NCBI GenBank assembly: GCA_947473305.1
Contig: CANJCB010000008.1
Location: forward strand, 62,001-126,000
Length of the DNA: 64,000 nt
Direction: 5' to 3'
Source: Rhodospirillales bacterium
Lineage (GTDB): Bacteria > Pseudomonadota > Alphaproteobacteria > ATCC43930 > CGMCC-115725
Shown here: positions 30,763 through 33,633 of the stretch, one piece after another
Position numbering within the stretch: position 1 is the first letter of the stretch
Layout of the letters: each line of letters starts with the position of its first letter
Translations under genes and position numbers: made by a program
The notes under the pieces: generated by a model
What the model was told of the DNA's origin: nothing
The model's input: only the letters and a program-made list of their open reading frames with translations
Database searches by the model: none

Positions 30763-30981
30763 TACGTTTCCCCTTCCCCTAGTGGTTGGTCCTCCTCGGA
30801 CCCCCATTAGTAGAATAGACTCAACATGAATCTGTCGCAATTAAGAAATACTGGCCTGCTCTTACTGCCAATGTGCCGCCGCCCGCAGACGTTGCAACCG
30901 ACAATTCATGACGATATTGTCTTCGTCATCTATCGGGGACCGACGCGCCCCGCCTCCAGAAACCCACGAGGAAGTCCGATC

Positions 30982-31722
30982 ATGTCCACGAGCGCGCAAA
31001 AAATTGTGCACAATCCAACGCCCGCCGAGGAGTGGAAGGAAGCGATCGCCGAGGACCTCCAGCGGCCCGAGCACCGCTACATCAACACGCCCCTGCTGAA
31101 GGAGCTGACCAGCGGCACGCTGCCCAAGGAAAGCATCAGGGATTACGCCGTTCTGCGCTGGCCCTTCCAGGCCCATGCGGTGCCCGCGATGATGCTGAGC
31201 CACGCCTGCTACCTCCAGGGCGAGGATGTGGTCCATCTGCTGGAGAACGTCTACGACGAGATCTTCCGGCCCTCGGGCGAAGGTGACCACCCAGGTCTCT
31301 GGGTCCAGTTCTGCAAGAAGCTGGGGGCGACCGACAAGGAACTCGACGAAGTGGCCGAGAACCCGCTTGCCGAGGTCATCGGCTTTGCGCGCACCCTCAC
31401 CCATTATTGCCAGCAGGGCGGCGTCGAAGGGCTGGCCACCTGGTTCGCCGACGAGGAGCAGCTACCGGAAGCCCATGGCGCGGCCGGGTTGGCCTTGCGC
31501 AAATATTACGGCCTCGACGACCCGACCATCGAATATTTCCTGGAGCATGTCCGCGCGGATATCGTGCATTCGGACTCCGCCGAGAATCTCATCGGCCGCT
31601 ACATGCATTCCCGCGCCGACGTGGTGCGGGCGCGGCGCACGGCCTCGGTGACGCTCTGGGCCTGGCGCGAGATGCACGAGGGCGTCCACCGGGCGATCCG
31701 CGAAAAATACAACCTCGACTAG
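30982..31722 (+). CDS. heme-oxygenase-like (TENA/PqqC/HDO fold) protein with intact iron-ligand pattern
   Basis: A 246-residue all-helical protein of the heme-oxygenase-like superfamily, which includes PqqC, TenA, CADD and UndA. Key segments are HRYINTPLLKEL (31-42), NVYDEIF (89-95), GEGDHPGLWVQFCKKLG (99-115) and YFLEHVRADIVHSD (185-198). The last has the F-x-x-H-x3-D-x2-H pattern used by iron- and diiron-binding members. Candidate ligands are E93, H103, H189, D193 and H196. The ATG at 30982 has GAGGAAG upstream; 52 extra in-frame codons before it are unlikely. First gene of a four-gene operon. Predicted oxidase or oxygenase, substrate unknown. Confidence 0.8.
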   Translation: MSTSAQKIVHNPTPAEEWKEAIAEDLQRPEHRYINTPLLKELTSGTLPKESIRDYAVLRWPFQAHAVPAMMLSHACYLQGEDVVHLLENVYDEIFRPSGEGDHPGLWVQFCKKLGATDKELDEVAENPLAEVIGFARTLTHYCQQGGVEGLATWFADEEQLPEAHGAAGLALRKYYGLDDPTIEYFLEHVRADIVHSDSAENLIGRYMHSRADVVRARRTASVTLWAWREMHEGVHRAIREKYNLD

Positions 31723-31735
31723 GACGACCCGCGGA

Positions 31736-32557
31736 ATGGAAGAACGGCTGCACCGTCTTCGCGGCACGGAGATCTTTGCGATCTCCGAAGGCTCCGGCAT
31801 GCCCGTCATCTGCATGCATGGGATCACCGCCAACGGCTATGTCTACGAGCCGATCGTGAAGGAACTCGCCTCGGAGTTCCTGATGGTCAGCATCGACGAG
31901 CGCGGGCATGGACGGAGCGGCCGGCCTCAATCCTATGAGGACGAGGATTTCGCCGAGGACGCGCTCGACTTGATCCGCGATCTGGGGAAAGGCCCGGCTA
32001 TCCTGGTCGGCCATTCCCTGGGCGCGCGCAACGGTATTGTCGCGGGCGTCAAGGCGCCGGAACTGGTGGCCGGCGTCGTCGCCATCGAATTCACGCCCTT
32101 CATCGAGACCGAAGTCCTCGATCAGCTCGAATCCCGGGTCAACGGCGGCGACCGCGTCTACCGCGACATGGACGATATCCGCTCCTATCTTTCCGGGCGC
32201 TATCCGCTGCTGCCGCCCGCCGCCATCGAACGGCGCGCGGTCCATGGCTACAGGCCTTTGGGCGACGGCACCTTCCGTCCCCTGGCCGATCCCCGGGGCA
32301 TGGGCTTGACCGCCGCCGGCCTCAGGAAAGACCTGGAGGCGCCGCTTCGCGCCCTGACCCGTCCCACCGTCCTCGTCCGCGGCGAGATCAGCAAGCTCGT
32401 CTCGGTCGATGCCTGGGCCAAGACTTTGAAGCTTCGTCCCGACCTTCCGGCGGAGACCGTCGCCAAGGCCGATCACTATGTCCCCGAGGAAGAGCCTGGC
32501 ATCACCGCCCGGATCATCCGCGACTTCGCAAAAACGCTCCCCAAGACGCCGCGTTAA
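31736..32557 (+). CDS. alpha/beta hydrolase
   Basis: A 273-residue cytosolic alpha/beta-hydrolase. Visible are the oxyanion region CMHGITANGYVYEP, the strand-turn SIDERGHGRSGRP, the nucleophile elbow GHSLGAR and a late KADHYVPEE with the catalytic His. The acid residue is probably in the LVRGEISKLVS segment. Related enzymes act as esterases, C-C bond hydrolases or lactonases. It starts 13 bases after the heme-oxygenase-like gene (AGGACG ribosome site), so co-expression is expected. It may act on that enzyme's product, which is inference. Confidence 0.85.
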   Translation: MEERLHRLRGTEIFAISEGSGMPVICMHGITANGYVYEPIVKELASEFLMVSIDERGHGRSGRPQSYEDEDFAEDALDLIRDLGKGPAILVGHSLGARNGIVAGVKAPELVAGVVAIEFTPFIETEVLDQLESRVNGGDRVYRDMDDIRSYLSGRYPLLPPAAIERRAVHGYRPLGDGTFRPLADPRGMGLTAAGLRKDLEAPLRALTRPTVLVRGEISKLVSVDAWAKTLKLRPDLPAETVAKADHYVPEEEPGITARIIRDFAKTLPKTPR

Positions 32558-32581
32558 AGCGGCAATCCCGAGAGAGGTTTC

Positions 32582-32947
32582 ATGGCTTCCGTAGGCATCC
32601 AATGGTCTAATCCCGTACTGATCCAGCGCGCGAAGGACGGCACGCTCTTCGCCACGATCCCCGAGCAGGTGGCGAAACATTTCAACGCCCATCCCGGCGA
32701 CGTCTTGAATTGGACCTTGCTCAAGGACGATACGGTCGAGGCCTGGACCATCCAGAAGAGCAATTACTCCTCGCTCGACGACCTGGAATCGCCAGCAAAG
32801 GCCGCAGCCGCCAAAAAGTCGGCAACCAAAAAGCAGCCGGCAGCGAAGCAACTGGCCGCCAAAAAGCCTGCTGCCAAGCCCGTTGCCAAGCCTGCGGCCG
32901 CAAAATCCGCCAAGGCGAAGAAGTCCGCCAAGAAGGAGAAGGCATGA
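32582..32947 (+). CDS. AbrB/SpoVT-like domain protein with Lys/Ala-rich histone-H1-like tail
   Basis: A 121-residue protein in two parts. Residues 1-60 resemble a swapped-hairpin AbrB/MazE-type domain (LIQRAKDGTLFATIPEQV, then AKHFNAHPGDVLNWTLLKDD, with the usual IP and PGD turns). Residues 70-121 are a low-complexity tail of AAKK, PAAK and KSAKK units resembling bacterial histone-H1-like proteins. The combination suggests DNA or RNA binding. The gene has a GAGAGG ribosome site and overlaps the next gene by ATGA, tying it to the operon. The AbrB resemblance is by eye, so function is tentative. Confidence 0.7.
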   Translation: MASVGIQWSNPVLIQRAKDGTLFATIPEQVAKHFNAHPGDVLNWTLLKDDTVEAWTIQKSNYSSLDDLESPAKAAAAKKSATKKQPAAKQLAAKKPAAKPVAKPAAAKSAKAKKSAKKEKA

Positions 32948-33633
32948 TGCTCAAGATCGCCGCGAGCGCCACACCCCAGGCGCTGCTCGCCAACGACGAG
33001 CGCCTGCCCGAGATGATCCTGGCGGATCACCCGACCTGGAAGGCGATCTTCGCCGGGAAGTTCCCCAAGCACCGGGTGAAGCAGCTCGTCCTGGAACTGT
33101 ATCCCCTGGTGGCCGGCCCCGGCCGCTATGCCTTCGCCGCCAAGGTCGCGACGATCTCGCCAGCCGACGGCAAGACGCTCTTCATGGATATCTTCAATGC
33201 GCTGAAGGACCCGCGCGCCAATGCCGACAAGGGTTGGGCGGCGCTGGCCAAGGGCCTCGGCTGCACCGACCGCGAGCTTGCCCAGACTTTGGCCTCGCCC
33301 ACGGCCGAGGCGCTCGACTATCTCGACGTGGTGCGCGGGCATTCGACGAAGTCCACGGCCATGGAGGCGACAATGATCGCCTGGGCGGTGGAGCGTCACC
33401 TGCCGGCGCTCTGGGGCCGTTTCGCGGATGCCCTGACCAAGCACTACGGGGTGCCCGCCTCGGCGGTTACCTTCCTGCGCTTCGAGGCGGAGCGCGGCGA
33501 CACCCTGCGCAAGTGGATCGACTATCTGGTGAAGACCTATGTCGAGCCGGCCGAACCCTTCGCGGTCTACGAAGGCCGCCGGGCCGCGCGCGAAGCGGTC
33601 TGGGCCTGGACGGTGACGGTGGAACTCGCCTAA
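32944..33633 (+). CDS. second heme-oxygenase-like protein, iron ligands apparently lost
   Basis: A 229-residue all-helical paralogue of the first gene of this operon. It shares the fold pattern HPTWKAIFAGKFPKHRVKQL at the N-terminus and RRAAREAVWAW near the C-terminus, which corresponds to RRTASVTLWAW in the first protein. By-eye alignment replaces the ligand positions: E93 by D89, H103 by K96, H189 by F180, D193 by R184 and H196 by T187. It therefore looks like a non-catalytic or differently acting partner, perhaps forming a heterodimer. The start overlaps the previous gene by ATGA. The stop overlaps the convergent rhomboid stop by four bases. Confidence 0.72.
   Translation: MMLKIAASATPQALLANDERLPEMILADHPTWKAIFAGKFPKHRVKQLVLELYPLVAGPGRYAFAAKVATISPADGKTLFMDIFNALKDPRANADKGWAALAKGLGCTDRELAQTLASPTAEALDYLDVVRGHSTKSTAMEATMIAWAVERHLPALWGRFADALTKHYGVPASAVTFLRFEAERGDTLRKWIDYLVKTYVEPAEPFAVYEGRRAAREAVWAWTVTVELA

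Follow-up and report, generated by a model that had tools for sequence, protein, structure and literature searches.

What two heme-oxygenase-like proteins, an alpha/beta hydrolase and a small AbrB-like protein might accomplish together is the question raised by a compact operon in the genome of a Rhodospirillales bacterium. The operon lies within the window, the 64,000-nucleotide stretch of contig CANJCB010000008.1 that was analysed. A preliminary description, made from the letters alone, had taken the four genes as one unit, with the hypothesis that the product of an oxidase is hydrolysed and that a nucleic-acid-binding partner serves control or localisation, and had known of no characterised pathway with this set.

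Organisation and inheritance of the operon

The four open reading frames lie on the + strand (Table 1). Checked against the sequence and the list of open reading frames, the single unit of the preliminary description was right in its coordinates, in its intergenic gaps of 13 and 24 bases and in the ATGA shared by genes 3 and 4, which overlap by 4 bases. A second in-frame ATG for gene 1 lies upstream, at 30826; since the GAGGAAG motif precedes 30982 and the orthologs are 243-251 residues long, 30982 is taken as the start. Apart from one weak palindrome, no operator-like repeats were found 5' of gene 1. Divergent from the operon is a gene for a membrane protein that matches the urate oxidase N-terminal domain (window:30144-30653), and no neighbour of this type was noted at the other three loci that carry the complete gene set.

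Table 1. Features of the operon, in positions of the window
Feature	Position	Strand	Basis
Shine-Dalgarno-like GAGGAAG, 5' of the gene 1 ATG	30968..30974	+	sequence
Gene 1 (P0001), 246 aa, heme-oxygenase-like dimetal oxidase (HDO)	30982..31722	+	Pfam PF14518, alignments, orthologs
Gene 2 (P0002), 273 aa, alpha/beta hydrolase, probable member of the E-2-(acetamidomethylene)succinate (E-2AMS) hydrolase family	31736..32557	+	phmmer match to 3kxp
Shine-Dalgarno-like GAGAGAGG, 5' of gene 3	32570..32577	+	sequence
Gene 3 (P0003), 121 aa, probable MazE/AbrB-type domain (about residues 5-66) and Lys/Ala tail	32582..32947	+	MazE_antitoxin profile, AbrB chains
Lys/Ala tail of gene 3, 52 residues	32789..32944	+	residue composition
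Gene 4 (P0004), 229 aa, probable pseudo-HDO, ATGA overlap with gene 3	32944..33633	+	model, 1rcw superposition, ligand columns

A scan of gene 1 against 84,980 species genomes returned two relatives at 67% identity, one on an alphaproteobacterial MAG contig (L016) and the other on a betaproteobacterial MAG contig (L017), and both carry all four genes in the order seen in the window. A search of the family around the genome of L017 added a third further complete copy (L041) and a fifth, partial one that is cut by the end of its contig (L042), so that four complete quartets of identical order are at hand from two proteobacterial classes. The preliminary description had proposed looking for such co-occurrence, and the genes were indeed found together, rather than scattered, in L016, L017 and L041; this recurrence argues that their association is more than chance. 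The four-gene set is nevertheless rare in the sampled genomes: profile searches with gene 4 or gene 1 found no quartet in 43 further genomes from the family and order to which the window belongs, nor in the other sampled genomes of its class (385) and phylum (398). Searches of plasmids gave no matches with genes 1 and 4 and weak ones with gene 2, at about 30% identity at most among the matches listed.

The overlap of 4 bases between gene 4 and the preceding open reading frame is present in all four copies. Moreover, the gene 1 clade and the gene 4 clade branch identically in the tree, as (L016,(window,(L017,L041))), which is as expected for inheritance of the whole unit; the grouping of the two clades as sisters has weak support (78/75). 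The window copy, from the alphaproteobacterial side, clusters with the betaproteobacterial copies and not with L016, which suggests either that the unit was transferred as a whole or that a MAG is mislabelled.

The four proteins

Gene 2 offers the clearest entry into the biochemistry of the operon. It matches the Pfam family Abhydrolase_1 (1.3e-19), in keeping with the alpha/beta hydrolase initially described, and its best phmmer match is 3kxp at 1.6e-76, against 4e-12 for the next, with 52% identity over 248 residues. A Foldseek search with the model of the L016 protein, in which the hydrolase is part of a fusion, gave the same answer (3kxp at 1.8e-26, the next match at 7.8e-17). The structure 3kxp is that of the E-2AMS hydrolase of Mesorhizobium loti, the last enzyme of vitamin B6 degradation. 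The original assignment can thereby be sharpened to the E-2AMS hydrolase family, and the lack of a characterised pathway held true only in part: literature searches found no paper on this four-gene set, but gene 2 itself very probably belongs to vitamin B6 degradation. A generic C-C or ester hydrolase was rejected, with 3kxp far above all other matches.

The catalytic and substrate-binding residues of E-2AMS hydrolase have been shown or modelled (PMC3538738). Ser106, His258, Asp130 and Ser230 of the M. loti enzyme align with S94, H247, E118 and S219 of gene 2, and Arg146, Arg167, Tyr168, Arg179, Tyr259 and Glu262 with R134, R155, Y156, R167, Y248 and E251, this substrate-binding set being identical in all four copies of gene 2, each of which has the catalytic residues too. 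The two enzymes are thus alike in the catalytic Ser/His/acid, the oxyanion-hole positions, the five diacid-binding residues, Glu262 and Ser230, but differ at the acid position, which is Glu in place of Asp130 in the window copy and Asp in the other three. They differ further in that the neighbours of gene 2 are two HDO-fold genes and one for an AbrB-type protein, the last being fused to it in one genome. Nothing marks the gene 2 copies off as a subfamily of their own: they share 47-54% identity with the M. loti enzyme and 46-56% with one another. On these alignments, gene 2 is very probably an E-2AMS-type hydrolase.

Gene 1 matches Haem_oxygenas_2 (PF14518) at 5.5e-16, and its nearest solved relatives, at 4e-15 to 4e-11, are the self-sacrificing pABA synthases CADD (1rcw) and NePabS (9pj4), which are also the closest solved relatives of gene 4. 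Aligned to both, it has the full dimetal set of three histidines and three carboxylates (E93, H103, E158, H189, D193, H196), invariant in the four orthologs, and its first description as an iron-type heme-oxygenase-like protein agrees with this. In CADD, Tyr27 and Lys152 (Tyr25 and Lys159 in NePabS) are the self-sacrificed residues (PMC11965152). Their counterparts in gene 1 are L39 and A168, and Leu or Val and Ala or Thr occupy these positions across the four copies, which rules out a CADD-type pABA synthase. Because the metal ligands are kept whereas the consumed Tyr and Lys are replaced, gene 1 should, judging by these alignments, be a dimetal O2-activating enzyme that acts on an external substrate.

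For gene 4, Pfam returns nothing; it matches the NCBIfam CADD family at 1.9e-7, and a profile built from its four copies matches NePabS at 3e-8. Its AlphaFold2 model (pLDDT 84.8) superposes on CADD 1rcw with a Z of 23.2 and an rmsd of 2.3 over 208 aligned residues, and the predicted fold is that of heme oxygenase. In contrast to CADD and NePabS, the three His ligands are replaced in all four copies, as is the first Glu (the E93 position), leaving E150 as the only metal ligand retained in every copy. With all three histidines gone, gene 4 does not qualify as a dimetal HDO: the two heme-oxygenase-like proteins of the preliminary description hold up as to fold, by model and CADD match, but not as equivalent oxidases. 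Identity between the window protein and the other copies is 47-54%, which argues for a maintained protein and not a decaying gene. Gene 4 is probably a conserved pseudo-HDO that serves as a non-catalytic partner of gene 1.

The window copy of gene 3 matches MazE_antitoxin at 0.035, below the gathering cut-off, and AbrB chains at E 0.03; the profile is nevertheless matched by each of the four family members, the best at 1.8e-5, which makes the AbrB-like domain first noticed a probable assignment. The Lys/Ala tail noticed with it, with 20 Ala and 17 Lys among the final 52 residues, is variable: the window copy has a long one, L017 and L041 have shorter ones and L016 has none, so that it is not essential. 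In L016 one open frame (L016:5690-6778) encodes the E-2AMS-type hydrolase with a MazE/AbrB-type domain at its C terminus. The domain sequence resembles those of MazE/AbrB (SpoVT-AbrB) proteins, but gene 3 is unlike them in a conserved YxSL motif after the domain, in the fusion to a hydrolase and in having no toxin partner. By analogy with PutA, an autoregulator fused to an enzyme, a role as a scaffold or autoregulator tied to the enzyme is plausible. The fusion is also the strongest evidence bearing on the putative nucleic-acid-binding role in control or localisation that had first been suggested for this protein.

A proposed enamide-forming module and its alternatives

In the breakdown of vitamin B6, the flavin enzyme MHPC oxygenase (MHPCO) opens the ring of MHPC (2-methyl-3-hydroxypyridine-5-carboxylate) to give E-2AMS. 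Here the E-2AMS-type hydrolase has for neighbours an HDO and a paralog of it without the metal site. Most simply read, the enamide would be the work of this HDO pair, which would open a pyridine ring by means of non-heme metal and O2. The operon may then be a rare catabolic module in which the HDO and its metal-less partner produce, from a pyridine-type carboxylate, the enamide on which gene 2 acts, a reading held tentatively and at slightly less than an even chance; that gene 1 makes the substrate of gene 2 is likewise possible, its prospects falling just short of even. A link of the operon to pyridine or vitamin B6 breakdown is probable.

Gene order and its conservation, the ligand set of gene 1, the ligand loss in gene 4, the active site of gene 2 and the L016 fusion are all observed; beyond these, we infer the substrate and reaction of gene 1, its pairing with gene 4 and the role of gene 3. 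The module would be inherited as a unit and its substrate would be a pyridine-type carboxylate related to MHPC, which gene 1 would oxidise with O2, either opening the ring or reaching the same product another way. That product would be an N-acylaminomethylene-succinate such as E-2AMS, and gene 2 would convert the enamide to acetate, ammonia, CO2 and succinic semialdehyde. As a catalytically dead paralog, gene 4 would be the structural or effector subunit in a pair with gene 1, while gene 3 would form a MazE/AbrB-type dimer physically tied to the hydrolase, as scaffold or autoregulator. The earlier idea of an oxidase whose product is hydrolysed thus survives in outline, given the E-2AMS catalytic and substrate residues kept in gene 2, but without a second oxidase, the ligands of gene 4 being lost. 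As proposed for gene 1, MHPCO delivers the predicted product to the hydrolase; gene 1, unlike MHPCO, is a dimetal HDO with no flavin domain, and MHPCO-like flavoproteins occur elsewhere in the same genomes. Gene 1 as an FAD-dependent aromatic monooxygenase was rejected, as its fold is that of an HDO and it would be at most MHPCO-like in function. In its boldest and rather doubtful form, the proposal is that a heteromeric HDO, made of an active subunit and an obligatory pseudo-HDO effector, opens the pyridine ring, replaces the flavin MHPCO in vitamin-B6-type catabolism and passes on what it makes to a hydrolase that is linked with an AbrB-type domain.

Those flavoproteins bear directly on the proposal. 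With a query identical to PDB 3alj over 379 residues, an MHPCO-like flavin monooxygenase (best match at 41-51% identity), unlinked to the operon, was found in each of the five host genomes. Of 283 other genomes in the class of the window, 7 have such a gene when E 1e-60 or better is required. This comparison is confounded by relatedness, three of the five hosts belonging to one family, and by the catabolic lifestyle of the host genomes, and its background comes from the window's class only. Simple displacement of a missing MHPCO by the HDO is thus not supported as stated, and replacement is unproven because all five hosts carry such a flavoprotein. An MHPCO-like enzyme might then open the pyridine ring and gene 2 carry out the last step, with the HDO pair acting elsewhere, for example in preparing the pyridine carboxylate or in side-chain oxidation. 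R181, R211 and Y223 of MHPCO are kept in these flavoproteins, as such a division of labour would have it; yet their genes are unlinked to the operon, and the closest of them, 44-51% identical to MHPCO, form a sister subfamily in which Y54 is replaced by F and H57 by E or D, while position 82 varies. Moreover, an MHPCO-like gene is present in genome G040, where no homolog of gene 2 was found at E 1e-50. These flavoproteins may be the true ring-opening enzyme or may act on another substrate, and ring opening by them with the HDO pair working elsewhere appears unlikely, if by no means negligible. Loci of the subfamily are L059:8758-9942, L060:7493-8614, L058:3912-5045, L057:5646-6749 and L066:1501-2622.

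The surroundings of the operon bear on whether the substrate derives from vitamin B6 at all, for the operon could handle another N-acyl enamide diacid, with the HDO using another substrate and gene 2 keeping the diacid pocket. In favour of this, and against the main reading, no gene of the B6 pathway could be recognised next to the operon within the window; the neighbours also differ among the four genomes. A LysR gene lies upstream of gene 1 in L016, and in L041 gene 1 is preceded at 30 bp by a TRAP solute-binding gene, with an IclR-type regulator further out. Directly upstream in L017 and L042 stands a gene of the class II aldolase family; the vitamin B6 decarboxylase 2z7b is of the class II aldolase superfamily, and other aldolases score better than 2z7b against the L017 gene. 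These neighbours are catabolic in character and speak for a catabolic module. Against a diacid of other origin, however, all residues that contact E-2AMS are kept in gene 2, and 3kxp falls within the diversity of the family, which leaves it a small chance. Far less probable still is a regulatory or toxin-antitoxin-like pairing of genes 3 and 4, with an oxidase-hydrolase pair next to them by chance. The MazE-type domain of gene 3 and its ATGA coupling to gene 4 might be read in this way, but gene 4 has a predicted heme-oxygenase fold and no known toxin fold, L016 joins the gene 3 domain to the hydrolase in one protein and all four genes travel together. PADLOC returned no toxin-antitoxin or defence match for the operon, and a module of either kind was rejected, the adjacent genes being a hydrolase and a heme-oxygenase fold protein.

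Possible catabolic HDOs and significance

The genome of the window has nine places that match the HDO family, several of them adjoining ring-cleaving dioxygenase and hydrolase genes; the E-2AMS hydrolase residue set was not found in the other hydrolases that adjoin HDO genes of this genome. An operon-like run at L009:2502-10621 (G000 contig C15) holds two HDOs, an alpha/beta hydrolase, a VOC dioxygenase-like gene, a solute-binding protein, a dehydrogenase-like gene, a Rieske ferredoxin-like gene and ABC transporter genes, and may be a catabolic cluster in which the HDOs have an electron donor of their own. At L012:4379-7020, L015:5181-6910 and L013:1399-6650, further HDO genes of this genome adjoin LigB-type or VOC ring-cleaving dioxygenases, hydrolases and a RidA-like protein, which suggests a wider catabolic use of HDOs.

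To our knowledge, no HDO has been reported to open an aromatic ring, which counts against the proposal. About a dozen HDOs have been characterised, described as enzymes of natural-product biosynthesis, and a protein effector is required by none of those studied to date (PMC13108848). The operon offers a candidate catabolic HDO that can be put to the test, accompanied by a conserved partner lacking the metal site, and the known specificity of the gene 2 family narrows the product of the HDO to one compound class. Overall, the findings suggest an undescribed route for breaking down pyridine-type compounds. If true, a heteromeric ring-opening HDO would be the first with a protein effector and the first to cleave an aromatic ring, and it could show that the opening of the pyridine ring in vitamin B6 breakdown was invented twice, once with flavin and once with non-heme iron.
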